Origin: Candidatus Methylomirabilis sp.
Lineage (GTDB): Bacteria > DYJV01
Length of the DNA stretch: 41,503 nucleotides
Assembly: GCA_020722945.1 (NCBI GenBank)
Contig: DYJV01000016.1
Coordinates: 1 to 41,503 of the forward strand
Direction of reading: 5' to 3'
In this document: piece by piece, positions 1,710 through 12,347 of the stretch
How the letters are laid out: the number at the start of each line of letters is the position of its first letter
Position numbering within the stretch: the first letter of the stretch is position 1
Notes under the pieces: generated by a model
Told to the model about the DNA's origin: nothing
The model's database searches: none
The model's input: the letters and a program-made list of their open reading frames with translations, nothing else
Made by a program: the position numbers and the translations under genes

Positions 1710-2729
1710 ATGATGAGTAAAAAATTTCTAATTCTATTGGGTTTATTATCCTGTTTCTTATTTTTTATCTTTTCTTGTTCAAAAGATAGTGTCACCCAAT
1801 CAAGAAAAACAATAATGAAAATGCCTGAGCCTGTCGCTGGAGCAACCAAAGTGGGTAATGACTCCTGTAAAGATTGCCATGAGGATTACACAAAAAATTT
1901 CAAAGCTAATGTCCATGGAAGGATAATCCCTGGCGAGACAGCTATTGGCGAAACAGGATGCGAGACCTGCCACGGAGCAGGAAGTGTCCATGCATCAAGT
2001 GAAGATCCATCAAAAATAATTAACCCCAAAAAAATCGACGCAGTTTCATCAAGTTCTGTATGTTTGAGATGTCATACTGGTGATGAGCATCAAGATTGGA
2101 ATGGCTCTGCACACTCATTAAATGATGTTTCATGCACAGATTGCCACAAAGTTCACAACAACAAAAGCAAAGGTTTACTCGTTAAATCTGAGCCTGATCT
2201 ATGTTACTCATGCCACAATGATGTAAAAGCAAAAATGTATTATCCTACTCACCATCCTGTAAAAGAGGGTAAAATGGTTTGCTCTGACTGTCACTCAAAT
2301 CATGGAAGTATGCTCAACAACCTAAAAACAGAAGAGCGATTAAATGATCTCTGTCTAAATTGCCACACCAAATATCAGGGACCATTTACATTTGAGCACT
2401 CACCTGTTGTTGAAGATTGCACAATTTGCCACGATGCACACGGCACAATTGCAAATAATCTTCTCAAAAGAAATGAGCCTTTCTTATGTTTACAGTGCCA
2501 CGATCTACATTTCCATACAGGGATTTCATCTGCCAATACTTATGGGTTACCTTATTTGAATCCTACTACTAATGCTAACAATACATATCAGGTTCTTGAA
2601 GGGAGCAAAAATCCAAGAACTACTCAATTATTTATGGGCACAAAGTGCACAACCTGCCATCCATCTGTTCATGGCTCAGAATTACCATCACTTTCTGTGC
2701 CAGGTCATGGTAGAGCACTAACAAGATAA
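1710..2729 (+). CDS. Decaheme c-type cytochrome, MtrA/DmsE family, lipoprotein-type signal
   Basis: The 339-residue protein carries exactly ten CxxCH heme-attachment motifs, beginning at Cys53, 84, 118, 142, 165, 191, 215, 237, 260 and 313. Many additional His residues can act as distal ligands. The decaheme count, the size and the barrel gene downstream are diagnostic of the MtrA/DmsE/PioA group, which forms a heme wire inside an outer-membrane barrel and passes electrons between periplasm and exterior. The N-terminus (residues 1-22) is hydrophobic and ends in I-F-S-Cys23, a plausible lipobox; well-known MtrA proteins are instead released by signal peptidase I. ATG codons occur at 1710 and 1713 behind an AGGGAG ribosome-binding site. 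The barrel gene starts nine bases after the stop, so the two are co-transcribed. The electron donor and final acceptor are not shown by the sequence. Confidence 0.93.
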   Translation: MMSKKFLILLGLLSCFLFFIFSCSKDSVTQSRKTIMKMPEPVAGATKVGNDSCKDCHEDYTKNFKANVHGRIIPGETAIGETGCETCHGAGSVHASSEDPSKIINPKKIDAVSSSSVCLRCHTGDEHQDWNGSAHSLNDVSCTDCHKVHNNKSKGLLVKSEPDLCYSCHNDVKAKMYYPTHHPVKEGKMVCSDCHSNHGSMLNNLKTEERLNDLCLNCHTKYQGPFTFEHSPVVEDCTICHDAHGTIANNLLKRNEPFLCLQCHDLHFHTGISSANTYGLPYLNPTTNANNTYQVLEGSKNPRTTQLFMGTKCTTCHPSVHGSELPSLSVPGHGRALTR

Positions 2730-2738
2730 GGGGGGATA

Positions 2739-5132
2739 ATGATGAAAAAATTAAAAATAATTATGTTTATCTGTTTTTGTTTGGGATTTACCCTTCCACT
2801 CTTAGCTGCTGATAAAAATATTGATGGGTATGTAGGAGTCGGAGCTTTTTTGCAAGGTGATAGCGATGCATTAGATAGAGCTGCAGAATATTATGAAGAT
2901 GAAAGTTCTCCCTCTTTTAAAGCTTACCTTGATACATATTCTGACTCTTCAGATTTTTACCTAAAAGGGAATTATGAGGGTGAATACACCAACGATTTAG
3001 AAATCAAAGGTAATTTTTTAAGACTAATATCTGTTGATCTCGATTATAATCAACTTTTTCACAGAAAAGATTATGACAGACTTTTTATTGACTATGACAA
3101 AACCAACTTTAGCCCACTAGTAGCTATGGGGAAAATTCCAGCAAGTGCTAAGCCTGATGGACAAGTATGGGGTATAAATAAGTTCATTTCAAATGATACT
3201 GTTACAAGTCCCGGAGGTCAATGGTTTGGATTTGAGCAAGATTCAAGTGCAGTTGACAAAGATTACTATATAAAAAGAAGGGAAGTTGTATCAAAAGCAT
3301 CTCTTGCAATGCCAAACCTTGAAACTCTCAAGCTCAACTTTTCAGGAAGATTTGAAAATAGAGAGGGTTATGAGCACAAAACAGCCATGGTAGGTAAATG
3401 CACAGCTTGCCACGTAAGAGGATTAAGAAAGCATGTAGATGAAACTACAAGGGATTTGACTGCTGGAGTTTCATACGTAGCTGGACCGGTATCTATGAGC
3501 TACTCTCATATGAAGAGAGATTTTTATGTTTCAAACAGCTCAATATCAACATCTTTTGACAACGTTGAAGGGTTAAGAACTACTATGCCTGACAAATATA
3601 TAGCTTTTGCCCCAAGATTAAATTCAGAAACTTACGGGACAACTGCTGAGGTTGCAAAAACTCCAGAATCAACAAAAGATATGGATACCATCAAGCTCAA
3701 AGTAGATCTACCTTCATACACTACTTTTGCAGGTTCTTTTACAACAAGTAATATCAGTAATGATGACACATACTCAAATGAGGATGTAGAGCTTGATCAG
3801 GATGCACTTAATTTGAGACTCACTACTCATTTACTTGACAGAAAACTTTCTCTAAGCACCAAGTTTAGATATGTAGAACTTGATAGAGATTATATATCTG
3901 CAGAGCTTCAAAAAAATGAAGCCTACTACTTTCAGCCAGCTTTCTATAAACCTGTTAATCTGGGTGGTGTAGATTACCTTTTTGATAAAAGCAAAGCATA
4001 CTTCAATACTGTTACAGGGGAACCTATTCATTTTCATGTAGAGGGTGATTCTACTTACAACAGAGAGCAGTATCTCACAGGTTTGGATACTGTATATAGA
4101 TTGAGCAAGAAACTCAAATTTAGATTAGGTTATGAGTATGAAAGCATCGATAGAGATAACTACGATGTTTATTACAATGAGACACAAACAGAGAGGAATA
4201 CTTTTAAAGCAGGTATAGACTTCAAACCTATTACTAATTTTACAGGAAGATTAAACTTCAAATATTCAGATATCAATTCACCTTTTGCACATCCTGATTC
4301 AGGGTGTATCCAGTTGACATCTTCTAAAGATCCTTCTGTTATATACAGTGGTTCAGGAGCTCCTGCAGCTTACCCACTTGTATATGATTTGAGAAATTAC
4401 ACAGGGTCAACTTCTCCATCAGAGATATACGACTACTCTCTCAACCTCTCTTGGCTACCTGTTGAGAAATTATCTTTATCACTCTTTGCTAAATATCTTG
4501 ATACTAAGAATGATGAGGGCAATACCAATTGGGATTATGATGCCTACAATTTAGGATTTGATGGTTCTTTTATGTTTAATGAAAAATTTGTTTTAAGCTT
4601 TGGCTACAGTTACGAAATTGCTAACACAGACTCTAAGTTGAGTGTTGGCATGTATGCTGGCTGAGGCGGCCATGTTTTCTCTGACCAGGTTGGGTCAGCT
4701 TGTGACAAAGTAGACTATGAACAAGAAGCACATGTATTTACCGGAAGTATTGATTTTACACCAATTAAAAGTTTAAAATTAAATCTTACTGCAAATTATA
4801 CTATCGGGACAGCAGATATGGATGATCCAAACTTCTCAACAACAAATCCTTCTGCTTACTTCAGCGGTGATATCTCATCATCTAAAGATTTTTACTTGTT
4901 GTTTATCTCCTCTAATGGGTCAACTCTCGATTATACAGGATTTAGTGATTACTCTAATTTAGATTACAATATCTTTGATGTTACATTCAATCTATCTTAC
5001 AGCATCAATGATAGTTGGACTCTCTTTGGAGTGCTCAACTATACAGATTATCAGGATGATGAAGCTTATGCTTATGGTGATCTTGATGGTAAGTATTATG
5101 CTGCAAATCTTGGAGTTCAATTTAAGTTTTAA
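2739..5132 (+). CDS. MtrB/PioB-family outer-membrane barrel protein with an in-frame TGA, probable selenoprotein
   Basis: Read through the TGA at 4662-4664, this frame gives 797 residues. They comprise a signal peptide (1-23, cleavage near LLA/AD) and a long series of alternating polar/aromatic beta strands. The protein ends in Phe797 (VQFKF), the terminal aromatic expected of outer-membrane barrels. Its size and its position after a decaheme cytochrome match the MtrB/PioB family, the sheath around the cytochrome wire. Stopping at the TGA would leave 641 residues ending GMYAG, an implausible barrel end. After the TGA, 155 sense codons remain open in the same frame and keep the barrel-like pattern, and a SECIS-like hairpin follows. 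I therefore infer selenocysteine at residue 642. Other cysteines of the mature protein are C221 and C224 (in CTACH, a heme-type motif unusual in a barrel), C523 and C655. A nonsense mutation or sequencing error is the main alternative. The ribosome-binding site is GGGGGGATA, just before 2739. Confidence 0.82.
4662..4698 (+). promoter_or_regulatory. Putative bacterial SECIS element with its UGA
   Basis: Sixteen bases after the TGA (4662-4664) comes a perfect six-base stem, CTGACC (4681-4686) with GGTCAG (4693-4698), closing the loop AGGTTG (4687-4692). Bacterial SECIS elements lie inside the reading frame just downstream of UGA and present a short apical stem-loop with a G in the first two loop positions. 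The fdhF loop of E. coli is AGGUCU. The loop begins 22 bases after the UGA, within the usual range. Below the apical stem I can only see weak pairing (4675-4678 with 4707-4710). Confidence 0.75.
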
Positions 5133-5154: not shown

Positions 5155-5185
5155 AAAAAAAGGAAGGGTTAACCTTCCTTTTTTT
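5155..5185 (+). terminator. Terminator of the cytochrome/barrel operon
   Basis: A run of A and GGAAGG (5162-5167) pairs with CCTTCC (5173-5178) followed by seven T, with a five-base loop. It starts 22 bases after the final stop at 5130-5132. Its position past the second stop, not past the TGA at 4662, agrees with one gene ending at 5132. Confidence 0.85.
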
Positions 5186-5525
5186 GTTGATACTTTTCTC
5201 AGCAATAACTCTTTATCTAATCATTCTCCTCGATTTATACCTTTTCTCTAATATATAAACACGGTTGACTCTTATTTACTGCCTGTAACGTGCCTCTACC
5301 TGCGGTAGAGAGACTATTTTTACTATTTGGAGAGATAAAGAAAAAAAAATCAATAATTTTGTAAAGTTAGGTTAATCTCTAATTACAAATTTTGATAAAC
5401 TAAACTGAGATTCATCTTTTTATAGAAGTATCAAACCTATGATAGCAGTAATAAAAATAGAAAATTTTACAAAAAATATTTGAAATTCCTTTATATATTA
5501 CAAAATATTACCTACAAATAACTCC
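5186..5525. other. AT-rich intergenic region with one GC-rich hairpin
   Basis: No gene seen. CTCTACC (5294-5300), loop TGC, GGTAGAG (5304-5310) forms a perfect seven-base hairpin that stands out by composition. It may be a repeat remnant like the one at 1569-1583. Confidence 0.5.
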
Positions 5526-5600: not shown

Positions 5601-7160
5601 ATGGCAAATAAGAACGCTTTTATGGAAAACCTGCTCGACAAAAATACTTTTCCTGTTACATGGGAGTTGGTTCCCGGCAGAGGAGCATTTGAAAAAGCTC
5701 AAGAAACACTCATAAAATCCGCAGAACAGGCAGCAAAAAGCAGTAAAATACATGCTCTTACAATTACTGACAATCCTGGTGGTAATCCTGCAATCTCTGC
5801 TGAAATGCTTGGAGTAGAAGTAAAAAATCTTGGTATAGACCCGCTTGTCCATTTTACATGCAAGGACAAAAGCAGAAATGAAATGGAAGCTATGCTTTAC
5901 GGTCTTGAAAGAGCTGGTGTATATAATCTTCTCGTTATGACAGGTGATTATCCTGTATCAGGATTTAAAGGTCGTTCACGACCAGTTTTTGATATTGATC
6001 CAATCCATGTGATTCAATTAATAGAAGAGATGAATTCCGGTCTTGAAGTTCCCGGACCCAAAGGAATCTCCAAACAAATTCCTACCAATTTCTTTGCTGG
6101 AGCCGCAGGTTCACCTTTTAAGAGCCTCGAATCAGAACAGATGGTTCAATATTATAAACTCAAGAAGAAGATTGAAGCAGGTGCAAAATTTATAGTTCCA
6201 CAGCTTGGTTACGATGCACGTAAATTCCAAGAAATTCTTTGGTTTGTAAGAAAAGTTCTTAAATCAGATGTTCCTCTTATAGGTAATGTCTATGTTCTTC
6301 CTTACGGACCCGGCAAACTGATGAACCAAAATATGATTCCGGGTTGTGTTGTTACAGAAAAGCTCCTCAAAACTCTTGAAAGTGAAAAAAACGCTGCTGA
6401 CAAAGGTAAAGGTGCAAGATTATTAAGAGCAGCCAAAATGTATGCATACTTCAAAGGTATGGGTTACAGTGGCGTCCATATTGGGGGTCATGGGCTGCCT
6501 ATTGATGATGTTTTGTGGATAATAGACAAAGGTGAAGAGTTAGCTCCAAATTGGCTCAATTATGTCCATGAGTTTGACTTTCCTATGGAAGAGGGTTTCT
6601 ATCTTTTTGAGAAAGATGAGAAAACTGGTCTTAATAAAGATACTTTATCAGAGAAAACTGCTGATGGAGATAGTCCTCTTATGTATAAAATGGCAAGATT
6701 CTTACATGATGTTATGTTTGAAGAGGATGGAATGCTCTTTAAACCTATGAGATGGTTATGCAAAAAACTCGATGGGAAAAAGGGTGGTGATATTTTTAAG
6801 CATATAGAACATCTAATAAAAGTTGCCAATTTTGAATGTATGGACTGTGGAGATTGTGCTCTCATGGATGTAGCTTTCTTATGTCCTATGTCTCAATGTC
6901 CCAAAAATCAGAGAAACGGTGCATGTGGTGGAAGTTACAATGGATGGTGTGAAGTTTACCCCAACAAGAAAAAATGTGTATGGGTCAGAGCTTACGATAG
7001 ACTCAAAGTATACAATGAAGAAGAATCAATCAAAGATAATCTTGTCCCACCACCCAACTGGGATTTCTTCCATACTTCATCATGGATGAACTTCTTCCTT
7101 GGCAGGGATCATGTTGCAAAAAGATTAGGAATCAAACCTCCCAAAAAGGATAACGACTAA
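5601..7160 (+). CDS. metF: Methylenetetrahydrofolate reductase fused to a MetV-type cysteine-rich domain
   Basis: The 519-residue protein has an N-terminal MetF-like TIM barrel (roughly 15-320; FPVTWELVPGRG, TITDNPGG, VMTGDYP and IGGHGLP segments). This domain reduces methylene-THF to methyl-THF using FAD. The C-terminal part (about 400-480) holds eight clustered cysteines, C413, C416, C419, C428, C433, C442, C450 and C459. It fits the zinc- or iron-sulfur-binding MetV domain, which acetogens encode as a separate subunit. Here both are in one chain. It probably supplies methyl groups to methionine synthesis or to a Wood-Ljungdahl-type route; no partner enzyme for either is in the window. A GGGGG ribosome-binding site precedes the ATG, and the gene is monocistronic between its own promoter and terminator. 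Confidence 0.88.
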   Translation: MANKNAFMENLLDKNTFPVTWELVPGRGAFEKAQETLIKSAEQAAKSSKIHALTITDNPGGNPAISAEMLGVEVKNLGIDPLVHFTCKDKSRNEMEAMLYGLERAGVYNLLVMTGDYPVSGFKGRSRPVFDIDPIHVIQLIEEMNSGLEVPGPKGISKQIPTNFFAGAAGSPFKSLESEQMVQYYKLKKKIEAGAKFIVPQLGYDARKFQEILWFVRKVLKSDVPLIGNVYVLPYGPGKLMNQNMIPGCVVTEKLLKTLESEKNAADKGKGARLLRAAKMYAYFKGMGYSGVHIGGHGLPIDDVLWIIDKGEELAPNWLNYVHEFDFPMEEGFYLFEKDEKTGLNKDTLSEKTADGDSPLMYKMARFLHDVMFEEDGMLFKPMRWLCKKLDGKKGGDIFKHIEHLIKVANFECMDCGDCALMDVAFLCPMSQCPKNQRNGACGGSYNGWCEVYPNKKKCVWVRAYDRLKVYNEEESIKDNLVPPPNWDFFHTSSWMNFFLGRDHVAKRLGIKPPKKDND

Positions 7161-8346: not shown

Positions 8347-10227
8347 TTATTTTAGATTATCAACCATTATATCTATCACTCTATTTACAAAGTCATTACC
8401 ATTTTCAGGCTTTGATCCTTCAAGTATCAACGCATGCTCAAAGAGTAATTGTGTAAAATCATCAAGTTTCTTGTCAGATTTGTCGTTTTTGTAAAGCTGG
8501 TTTAACTTCTCTATCAATTTATGATTCGGATTTATTTCAAGAGTTCTTTTGATTTCTGGAGTTTTCTGACCCATAGCTTCAAATAACTTTGCCATTTGAG
8601 GATCAATATCGTGCTCCCTTGTAACAAGACAACATGGAGAATTTGTCAATCTTCCTGAAAAACGGACATCTTCAACTTTACCTTGAAGTTTATCTTTCAT
8701 AAAATCTATAAAATCTTTGAAATCTTTCTCTTTCTCTTTATCTTTATTTTTTTCTATATCTATTTCACCTTTTGTAGCAGATTTGAATTTTTTACCTTTA
8801 TACTCCATCATTCCACTCATAATAAAATCATCTATCTCATCTGTAAAGAAGAGAATTTCAAAGTTTTTACCTTTGAATGCTTCAAGGTATGGTGAATTTT
8901 CAAGGTCTTTCCTTTTAGAACCTGAAATATAGTAGATCTCATTCTGATCAGCTTTCATATTTTTTATATAATCATCAAGAGTTGTAAACTTACCCGATTC
9001 TGTCTCTGTTGACTCAAAAAGAAGTATTGATGCAATATCCTCTTTATTTGCAAAATCAATATGGATCCCCTCTTTTAATATCTTTCCAAACTCCAGATAA
9101 AACTCTAAATATTTATCATACTCACTCTTTTTCATATTTTTGAGTGTATCGAGTATTTTGGAGACCAAACTTTTTTTGATCGTCTCAACTTTTTTGTTAC
9201 TCTGCAATATCTCCCTCGATACATTCAGAGGTAGATCTGAACTCTCAACTACTCCTTTTACAAATCTCAAATATGGTGGAAGAAGCTCCTCGCAGTTCTC
9301 CATAATCTGAACTCTTTTTACATAAAGCATAGGTCCAATTTTCTGATGATTATGAAATATTCCAAATGGGACTTTTTTGGGTATAAAAAGTAGTGCTGTG
9401 AACTCTGTAAGCCCTTCAACATTATAATGTATTATTTCAAGCGGGTCATTATAATCGTGTGATATATGTTTGTAAAATTCACAATACTCTGTCTGCTTAA
9501 TCTCATTTTTACTTCTCAGCCATAAAGCTTTCTGAGAATTTAAGGTTTCCTCCTCCTTTATCTTCTCACCCTTAACAACAGTGGACTCCTTTTCAACATC
9601 AATAACAATAGGAAACTCTATAAAATCTGAATATTTTTTTATTAATGTTCTTATCTCCCACTCTTCAAGATAATCAAGTGCATCATCTTTTAGGTGAAGG
9701 ATAACATCTGTCCCTCTTCCACTCTTCTCTGTATCAGTTACAGTATAAAAACCATCAGCTTTAGATTCCCAGATAACAGCACTGCTATCTTTACCTGCTC
9801 TTTTGGTAACAACAGTCACTTTATCAGCAACCATAAATGAAGAGTAAAACCCAACTCCAAACTGCCCTATAAGCTCAGCCTCAGATTCTATATTTTTCTC
9901 TTTTAGATATTTTAAGAACTCTTTTGTGTTTGAATGTGCAATTGTCCCTAAATTTTTAATAACCTCTTCCTTAGACATACCCAAACCATTATCTGAAATT
10001 TTTACAGTTTTTGAATTTTTATCAAGATATATTTTTATCTTGAAATTAGAGTCAGATTCAAGAATATCTTCATTTGACAAAGATTCAAGCCTTAATTTTT
10101 CGATAGCATCAGAAGCATTTGATACAAGTTCTCTCAAAAAAATCTCCTTGTGAGAGTAGAGTGAATGGATCATTAGGTCAAGTATTTGATTTACTTCTGT
10201 TTTAAATTCAAATTTATTTTCGCTCAT
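8347..10227 (-). CDS. htpG: Chaperone protein HtpG (bacterial Hsp90)
   Basis: The 626-residue protein is of normal HtpG length. Its N-terminal GHKL ATPase domain shows Asn37 in the LVSNASDAIEKLR helix, the DNGLGM magnesium-binding loop, and the GQFGVGFYS lid. The middle domain (about 235-490) and the dimerization domain follow. There is no MEEVD tail, as expected for bacteria. It helps fold client proteins in the cytosol. A GGGGGAAG ribosome-binding site lies eight bases before the ATG. I find no CIRCE element or clear sigma32 promoter upstream. A 25-base palindrome sits 70-96 bases upstream and may be an operator or the terminator of the bactofilin gene. Confidence 0.97.
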   Translation of the reverse strand: MSENKFEFKTEVNQILDLMIHSLYSHKEIFLRELVSNASDAIEKLRLESLSNEDILESDSNFKIKIYLDKNSKTVKISDNGLGMSKEEVIKNLGTIAHSNTKEFLKYLKEKNIESEAELIGQFGVGFYSSFMVADKVTVVTKRAGKDSSAVIWESKADGFYTVTDTEKSGRGTDVILHLKDDALDYLEEWEIRTLIKKYSDFIEFPIVIDVEKESTVVKGEKIKEEETLNSQKALWLRSKNEIKQTEYCEFYKHISHDYNDPLEIIHYNVEGLTEFTALLFIPKKVPFGIFHNHQKIGPMLYVKRVQIMENCEELLPPYLRFVKGVVESSDLPLNVSREILQSNKKVETIKKSLVSKILDTLKNMKKSEYDKYLEFYLEFGKILKEGIHIDFANKEDIASILLFESTETESGKFTTLDDYIKNMKADQNEIYYISGSKRKDLENSPYLEAFKGKNFEILFFTDEIDDFIMSGMMEYKGKKFKSATKGEIDIEKNKDKEKEKDFKDFIDFMKDKLQGKVEDVRFSGRLTNSPCCLVTREHDIDPQMAKLFEAMGQKTPEIKRTLEINPNHKLIEKLNQLYKNDKSDKKLDDFTQLLFEHALILEGSKPENGNDFVNRVIDIMVDNLK

Positions 10228-10298
10228 AGAGCTTCCCCCTTTTTAATTTATTTGAATTAATAGTTTTTTAAGGTTAAAATAGAATAAAATAAGCCAAA

Positions 10299-10323
10299 AA
10301 CTTAATACGATCGTAATTAAGTT
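10299..10323. repeat. 25-base near-perfect palindrome between bactofilin gene and htpG
   Basis: Arms AACTTAAT and ATTAAGTT flank ACGATCGT, with one extra base off-centre. On the minus strand a T5 run follows, so it can act as terminator for the bactofilin gene. Its position upstream of htpG also allows an operator role. Confidence 0.5.
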
Positions 10324-10358
10324 CTGACTTATTTAATTTAGGATTAGTTTGAAATAAA

Positions 10359-10772
10359 TCAATTGAATTTTTTTAAAATTTTTGGAGATTCAGCATCAGT
10401 AAAAGCTTCTTCATCTTCAGATTTGGAAATCGAGCCTTTCAACATAGAGCATTCACCATCAAATAGAGCCCCAATCTGAATAAAAAGCTCATTTGTAAAT
10501 ATTTTGCCGATAATTTTACCAGGTGTAAAATTTTCTAATTTGTCACATTTGACAATACCCTCTATTCTACCTTTGTTTATAAGGTTTTTAACCTCTATCT
10601 TACCTCTTATTTCAGATTTCTCTCCAACCATAAGGGTCCCTTCACTTGAATATATCTCCCCTGTAAATTTGCAATCAAGATTAGCTGTCCCTTTGAATAT
10701 AAACTTCCCCTCAAAATTGACATCCTCTGATAAGAAAGCTTTTATCCCCTTATCGTCATCTTTTTTGAACAT
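10359..10772 (-). CDS. Bactofilin family protein
   Basis: The 137-residue protein has a central run of short repeating beta segments with regularly spaced Gly and hydrophobic residues (FEGKFIFKG, GEIYSSEGTLMVG, GKIEVKNLINKG). This is the right-handed beta-helix of bactofilins, flanked by polar tails. Bactofilins polymerize without nucleotide at the membrane and position cell-wall enzymes or shape determinants. It lies 27 bases after the LpoA-like gene with a strong AGGAGG ribosome-binding site, so it probably ends that operon. Co-occurrence with a peptidoglycan-synthase-activator-like gene fits a cell-shape function. The specific role is unknown. Confidence 0.9.
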   Translation of the reverse strand: MFKKDDDKGIKAFLSEDVNFEGKFIFKGTANLDCKFTGEIYSSEGTLMVGEKSEIRGKIEVKNLINKGRIEGIVKCDKLENFTPGKIIGKIFTNELFIQIGALFDGECSMLKGSISKSEDEEAFTDAESPKILKKFN

Positions 10773-10799
10773 TTGAAACCTCCTATATTAGTAAATACA

Positions 10800-12347
10800 T
10801 TAATGTATCCTTACTATCTCATTATTCTCAACTTTAAATTTTTTAAATATTTTATGAGATTCTCCCTTGCTATCAAAATATGTATCACCTGTCAAAAGAA
10901 AAAATTTACTATTTTCAAAAGAGCTCTTTATTTTGACATTGCTGCTCATATCAATTTTGAAAGCAAGATTAATAGTATCATAAAAGAGTGTATTCAAGAA
11001 ATCTGGAACAGCATTAAAATATTTTTTGAGATAATTTTTAAAAGATAAAAAATCGGCATCATTTGATGAATAATCTATCAGATCTATAAAAAAAATATTT
11101 TTTCTAAATCTCGGCTCTAAATTTAGTATATCCTTTGAATTCCATAAATTAGTCCCAAAAATTTTGATATCCTTTAAATCGTAAAAAACTAACTGAGGAA
11201 TAATAAGGAGAGCTTTTTGAAGCTCGTCTGCAATAAGAACAGAATCAAGCTCCCTCTGTTTGATATACCTATTATCTTTTGAGCTTAATTTTTTGAGATT
11301 ACCAAGATCGATAATCTCATTTCTAAAATCAACTTCATTTTCGGAATAACCTATTGATATTTCTGGCTTAAATCCATTTTTCATAGCAATATATGTAAAT
11401 CTATTCCCAAAAGAGTTTTCAGGATAAAGGACTCCTGTATGTTGAGACTCACTCTTTATAAAATCACACAGTTGCGAAACTTGGTCAGGTATATTTAAAA
11501 AATGGTTAAATTTGAGATCGTATTCGATTTCTGAGGATGGATTCATCAAGAGAGTTATGATAGGTTTATTAAATCTCTTAGCACACATTACAATATTTTT
11601 TTCAAGTGAAGATTGGAGAGGACCTATAATAATATCCACCTCTTGACCTTTAAGTATACTTTCAAGTTGGCTGACAGAGTGCTCCTCCCCTAATGCAGTA
11701 TCAACAATAAAAAGATCAAGAGAATCACCCTTATTTCCAAAAAAATTTGAAGCAGTAAGAACTCCCTCCAAAGCTCTATCCCCAATATTTTTAAGATTCC
11801 CTGAGAAAGGGACAACTAATATTACTGATAATTTATTACTAAATCTCTGTAATCTTTCTTCTTTGTGCATAGGGGAAACATTTGAAAAATTATCAACTTT
11901 AATACTATCTCGATTATTTTTAGCTGTGGGGACACTTTTAAAAGAGGTGGGGTATTTATTTCTCATATAATTTAAGGTTTCATCATATATATTGAGTCCC
12001 TTAGCCTCATTGAGCAGAGATTCTATAAAACTATTATCACCCTCTAAAAATTTAAGGTATGACATCTTAGAGACAATATATACAAAATTCTTTGCAAATT
12101 TATCAAAATCAACATTATTATAATCTAATATTGTAACTCCATCTATTATCTTCTCTACATCTGCAAGTATAATTTTTTTCTGATCTGCTGAAGCATCATT
12201 GTATATAAATGAATAGTATCTGAGCTCACAAAATCTGTCAGCATTTGCTCTACATAGCTTTAGAAGAACAGAGTATGGGTTGTCGGCAAATAGAGAGTTT
12301 CCAAGAATAAAAAAAATAATGATTAGTAATATTGACTTTATTTTCAT
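10800..12347 (-). CDS. LpoA/periplasmic-binding-protein-like envelope protein
   Basis: The 515-residue protein has a signal peptide (1-21, ending LFADNP). A helical, TPR-like N-terminal part (about 25-150) follows, then a type I periplasmic binding fold (from about 170; the ILVVPFSGNLKNIGDRALEGV segment, IIGPLQSS, and HTGVLYPENSFG). This two-part build resembles LpoA, the activator of PBP1A in peptidoglycan synthesis. It also resembles ordinary amino-acid ABC receptors, but no ABC genes adjoin it. There is no lipobox cysteine at the signal end, unlike true LpoA lipoproteins. The ATG overlaps the upstream stop by one base. Its neighbour is a bactofilin, so I favour a cell-wall role over transport. 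Confidence 0.7.
   Translation of the reverse strand: MKIKSILLIIIFFILGNSLFADNPYSVLLKLCRANADRFCELRYYSFIYNDASADQKKIILADVEKIIDGVTILDYNNVDFDKFAKNFVYIVSKMSYLKFLEGDNSFIESLLNEAKGLNIYDETLNYMRNKYPTSFKSVPTAKNNRDSIKVDNFSNVSPMHKEERLQRFSNKLSVILVVPFSGNLKNIGDRALEGVLTASNFFGNKGDSLDLFIVDTALGEEHSVSQLESILKGQEVDIIIGPLQSSLEKNIVMCAKRFNKPIITLLMNPSSEIEYDLKFNHFLNIPDQVSQLCDFIKSESQHTGVLYPENSFGNRFTYIAMKNGFKPEISIGYSENEVDFRNEIIDLGNLKKLSSKDNRYIKQRELDSVLIADELQKALLIIPQLVFYDLKDIKIFGTNLWNSKDILNLEPRFRKNIFFIDLIDYSSNDADFLSFKNYLKKYFNAVPDFLNTLFYDTINLAFKIDMSSNVKIKSSFENSKFFLLTGDTYFDSKGESHKIFKKFKVENNEIVRIH

Follow-up and report, generated by a model that had tools for sequence, protein, structure and literature searches.

Origin of the question: an interrupted barrel gene

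Does the single TGA that interrupts an outer-membrane barrel gene of a Candidatus Methylomirabilis sp. mark the end of a broken gene, or is it read as selenocysteine (Sec)? The gene lies in a stretch of 41,503 nucleotides (contig DYJV01000016.1 at its full length, hereafter the window). The barrel frame that starts at position 2739 is interrupted by exactly one TGA (codon 642, positions 4662-4664), and standard gene calling ends the ORF there, at 4664. The same frame remains open after the TGA for 155 codons, up to a TAA at 5130-5132, and its translation closes with a typical barrel C-terminus (...VQFKF), followed by a hairpin and a T run resembling a terminator (Table 1). The initial annotation had described these elements (the single TGA, the open extension with its VQFKF end and the terminator), and all were recovered here. 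The probability that 155 codons would lack a stop by chance is about 1e-5. Moreover, codon usage downstream of the TGA is coding-like in the barrel frame only: its log-odds per codon is +0.19, while the five remaining frames have values between -0.29 and -0.76.

Table 1. Features of the barrel locus, in window coordinates
Feature	Position	Strand	Basis
Decaheme c-type cytochrome, GSU2203 (OmcK) family, MtrA/DmsE-like, presumed heme wire	1710..2729	+	NF041028, TIGR03508
Outer-membrane barrel of the GSU2204 family, probable selenoprotein of 797 residues with TGA read as Sec	2739..5132	+	NF041027, translation, MtrB fold match
CTACH, a CXXCH (c-heme type) motif within the barrel protein, residues 221-225, in a loop	3399..3413	+	Alignment and model
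Long loop carrying the Sec residue, residues 633-657, predicted extracellular	4635..4709	+	Strand-free, low confidence in model
In-frame TGA at codon 642, very probably read as Sec	4662..4664	+	17/17 homologous places spanning the column; NF041027 match stops at residue 641
Putative SECIS hairpin; family consensus of 8 bp with loop GGU, window copy with a one-base register shift or bulge	4680..4698	+	Covariation, synonymous-recoding test, alignment
Terminator-like hairpin AGGAAGG/CCTTCCT with T run, 3′ of the barrel gene	about 5161..5186	+	Read from sequence

The gene directly upstream of the barrel gene encodes a cytochrome that scores well above the cut-offs of two curated models (428 bits against NF041028, cut-off 325; 257 bits against TIGR03508, cut-off 192). 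This arrangement is shared by most relatives, as an ORF with ten CXXCH motifs adjoins the barrel in 11 of the 13 homologous loci. In Geobacter, the GSU2203 cytochrome is named OmcK, and transcript levels of GSU2203 and GSU2204 rise in the presence of hematite or magnetite, by about 1.5- to 2.7-fold (PMC4070692). The gene anatomy supports a porin-cytochrome conduit, and both family and fold matches (see below) bear out the earlier view that an MtrB-type barrel stands beside a decaheme cytochrome. Further along the same strand, positions 5601-7160 encode a methylenetetrahydrofolate-reductase-like protein with a Cys-rich C-terminal extension, which falls far short of the cut-offs set for the standard MetF models.

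The barrel belongs to a catalogued selenoprotein family

The barrel protein matches NF041027 with 384.8 bits, over a cut-off of 350, across profile positions 3-580 of 580. This model is named "GSU2204 family CXXCH-containing (seleno)protein" and is also matched by all ten aligned members of the family. Coverage by the curated model is limited to the part of the barrel ahead of the Sec: its match stops at residue 641, the last one before the UGA, and it stops at the equivalent place in each of the four homologs that were scanned separately.

The initial annotation knew of no described selenoprotein among the barrels of electron conduits. This was wrong, since the family is already present in NF041027 and the MtrB/PioB-family barrel is entered as a selenoprotein family in two reviews (PMC9312934; PMC13188914). 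The main texts of two papers that these reviews cite for selenoprotein families (PMC2398784; PMC5029168) do not name the barrel, and our literature search found no study addressing its Sec. The GSU2204 barrel family is thus known as a selenoprotein only from computational cataloguing, and the barrel of the window is a well-supported further member of this catalogued family, not a new type. What is added here is evidence for a SECIS element, for the invariance of the Sec residue and for its position in a loop.

The window protein shares with the GSU2204 family a score above the cut-off, a match that ends at the Sec, a CXXCH motif in the barrel and an adjoining decaheme cytochrome of the GSU2203 family. 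We noticed no essential difference: the window copy is 21-53% identical to the aligned members, few of the relatives compared being from its own lineage, and its hairpin departs from that of the family by a one-base register shift. Selenocysteine is also predicted in ExtKL of Geobacter (NF040886; PMC5877670), which belongs to a cluster for extracellular electron transfer; it is a cytochrome of a separate family, whereas the selenoprotein of the window is the barrel itself. Plasmid and viral collections contained no relatives of the barrel.

The TGA column is invariant among homologs

A profile built from ten homologs was run against two phylum-level groups and against 386 genomes sampled as relatives, nearly all of them belonging to other phyla. 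These whole-genome searches replaced an earlier scan of contigs with narrow peptide patterns, which had retrieved three loci only. The Sec column is spanned by 17 homologous places in 13 genomes, and each of them has exactly one TGA, in that same column; profile matches without a TGA end short of it. Neither Cys nor any other sense codon occupies the Sec column among the homologs found, in a sample that includes no genome identifiable as Geobacter, the namesake of the family. Bacterial selenoproteins usually, though not always, have homologs with Cys in place of Sec. In the alignment of ten proteins, the Sec residue sits in a G-U-G/A motif, and its G-U pair makes up two of the six invariant columns. 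The CXXCH motif of the barrel, which the initial annotation does not mention, is conserved in each of the eight aligned sequences that extend over residues 221-225.

Some relatives carry more than one such gene. Two UGA barrels are encoded on opposite strands of a single 13-kb contig in the related genome G001 (L061, positions 3-1367 and 9046-11436), and the genome G307 has two barrel copies on separate contigs.

These data bear directly on the possibility that the TGA is a real stop, a pseudogene mutation or a sequencing error, so that only a truncated barrel of 641 residues would be made. The end assigned by standard gene calling agrees with it, as does the unremarkable fold of the region when the window sequence is considered alone. 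Against it, all 17 places share the TGA column together with a conserved, coding-like C-terminus, a sequencing error could not recur in 13 genomes, and the hairpin that follows the TGA covaries (see below). This reading is barely credible. The comparison of homologs, which the initial annotation had proposed as a check, came out with UGA at the residue-642 column in every homolog that spans it, along with a covarying hairpin.

A conserved hairpin follows the UGA

The initial annotation had drawn a stem of six base pairs with loop AGGTTG, 16 nt after the TGA. This structure is present in the window (CTGACC-AGGTTG-GGTCAG at 4681-4698), but its register is not that of the family. An ungapped alignment of 14 sequences extends over 48 nt from the TGA; the base that follows the TGA is always G and the GG of the loop is invariant. 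In this alignment, the family stem consists of 8 bp (columns 19-26 paired with columns 30-37) closed by a GGU loop, with 86% of cells paired. The 6-bp register with loop AGGTTG pairs only 57% of cells across the family and was rejected as family consensus on this comparison. The drawing made from the window differs from the consensus because the lower stem is shifted by approximately one base in the window copy, as it is in its two relatives from G001.

Taken alone, the hairpin of the window makes a weak case. The 59 nt from the TGA fold no better than shuffled sequences (z 0.35), and a test against synonymous recodings, drawn with each gene's own codon usage, gave p = 0.014 for the window copy. 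No Rfam family scored above its gathering score in scans of the window and of positions 4600-4800, which returned chance matches only. The hairpin being unexceptional on its own, the case for Sec rests on comparison. In all 16 sequences submitted to the recoding test, the stability of the hairpin exceeds the mean of the synonymous recodings (individual p from 0.0003 to 0.09), and the pooled Fisher chi-square reaches 157.8 with 32 df, for sequences whose relatedness limits their independence. Two-sided changes occur in five of the eight stem pairs. The covariation score is 0.346, versus 0.107 in shuffled alignments, a value reached by none of 500 shuffles, and sliding the pairing partners abolishes the signal. 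The predicted hairpin is clearly real across the family, and weak when taken singly.

In the fdhF SECIS of Escherichia coli, a hairpin with loop AGGUCU lies just after the UGA and presents AGGU at its tip. The window hairpin likewise comes just after the UGA with an AGGU tip, whereas its loop reads AGGTTG instead of AGGUCU and it is located farther from the UGA.

The genome encodes a complete Sec system

The search for selA, selB, selC and selD that the initial annotation had suggested detected all four in the source genome, each above its curated cut-off (selA 596 bits, selB 351 bits, selD 334 bits and tRNA-Sec 72.8 bits). ARAGORN classified the same tRNA as tRNA-SeC with anticodon TCA. The selD gene of this genome (L019) has an in-frame TGA of its own near the start (VRAAGUAGKLAPG). 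An in-frame TGA in selD is common among selenium-using bacteria, and SelD of the source genome is probably itself a selenoprotein; therefore at least one other gene of this genome seems to use the Sec system.

Two MAGs of one family, G390 and G391 (L067, L068, L071 and L072), encode a UGA barrel with an intact hairpin, yet have no clear tRNA-Sec. Their best matches score 45-48 bits, and ARAGORN assigned the ones examined to Trp, Ser or Leu. The same tRNA search found no clear tRNA-Sec in their relative G389. Incomplete assembly is the simplest reason for the missing tRNA-Sec in the G389-G391 group; the completeness of G390 and G391 is 88-90%.

Near-cognate tRNA read-through is possible in any bacterium, and the UGA might thus be read as another amino acid, such as Trp, by suppression or by reassignment of the code. 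The presence of a complete Sec system with tRNA-Sec(TCA), the conservation of the downstream hairpin with its invariant loop GG, the curation of the family as (seleno)protein and the lack of a sense codon at this column in any homolog found all argue against such a reading, which we consider highly improbable. Truncated pseudogene and non-Sec read-through were both rejected on the comparative data.

Sec is very probably inserted at codon 642 of the MtrB-like barrel, as judged from sequence comparison. The proposal of the initial annotation that this barrel carries Sec is supported by the Sec machinery, the UGA column of the homologs, the covarying hairpin and the family match. The two genes would form a porin-cytochrome conduit of the GSU2203-GSU2204 type, in which the decaheme cytochrome would be held within an MtrB-like outer-membrane barrel. 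The UGA at codon 642 of the barrel mRNA would be read as Sec by SelB and Sec-tRNA, directed by the hairpin at 4680-4698, and the full barrel of 797 residues would be made when selenium is available.

The Sec residue lies in a predicted loop of an MtrB-like fold

A search of PDB sequences with the family profile returned no match, and folds were therefore compared instead. The AlphaFold2 model of the barrel, built from four sequences, has a low overall confidence (mean pLDDT 52), with many confident strands. In Foldseek, chain B of 6r2q, the MtrB protein of Shewanella oneidensis, ranks first (E 5.1e-15, TM 0.47/0.57), ahead of the next match (E 6.5e-9) and well ahead of TonB-dependent receptors. 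The VIA-align comparison likewise favours 6r2q_B (Z 19.3 over 516 residues, rmsd 5.2), the next chain reaching Z 17.2 with 425 aligned residues.

The window barrel and MtrB of S. oneidensis thus share the closest fold and the organization of a large barrel adjoining a decaheme cytochrome. They differ in that the window barrel carries Sec in one of its loops, contains a CXXCH motif and does not match the MtrB models TIGR03509 and PF11854, at E values up to 1. Among the ten homologs, low-score matches were obtained to PF11854 in four and to TIGR03509 in three. The barrel therefore appears MtrB-like by its predicted fold and presumed way of working, while its sequence places it in the GSU2204 family.

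In the model, residue 642 falls in an unstructured stretch (633-657) between the strands 617-632 and 658-676, both of which have two-residue turns at their opposite ends. The CXXCH motif (221-225) lies at the junction of the strands 197-217 and 226-248, with short turns on the other side. We tentatively place the Sec residue and the CXXCH motif in long loops on the same side of the barrel. Long loops usually face outward, and this side, with the Sec loop and the CXXCH loop, is therefore probably extracellular.

Possible roles of the selenol

The long loop that holds the Sec residue is probably exposed at the cell surface, with the CXXCH loop on the same side. At this outer mouth of the wire, the selenol could be redox-active or serve as a ligand of a metal or heme. 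A redox or metal role is the likeliest one for the selenol, and we regard it as evenly balanced.

A variant of the preferred explanation, which does not compete with Sec insertion, is that Sec is inserted for a structural or regulatory role without redox or metal function, the UGA serving as a switch by which selenium determines whether the short or the full barrel is made. A truncated barrel would lack the last strands, those after residue 642 in the model, so that selenium supply would gate the conduit, and the chemical role of the selenol is one that we only infer. The invariance of Sec, with neither Cys nor another replacement seen, suggests instead that the residue itself matters, and we find such a switch unlikely. 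Returning to a chemical role, a more specific but still doubtful proposal is that the outer-loop selenol and the heme of the barrel's own CXXCH, on the same face, form a surface redox or metal site that links the decaheme wire to an external acceptor by electron transfer.

If that surface site exists, the barrel would take an active part in the circuit in addition to insulating it, and Cys could not replace Sec there. A Sec residue at the surface would expose a strongly nucleophilic redox residue on the cell. Ordinary annotation cuts the barrel gene at residue 641, and surveys of conduits may in consequence miscount strands or call the barrel broken. GSU2204 of Geobacter offers a tractable test case for Sec in the barrel. 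If the barrel depends on selenium, extracellular electron transfer would be tied to selenium supply.
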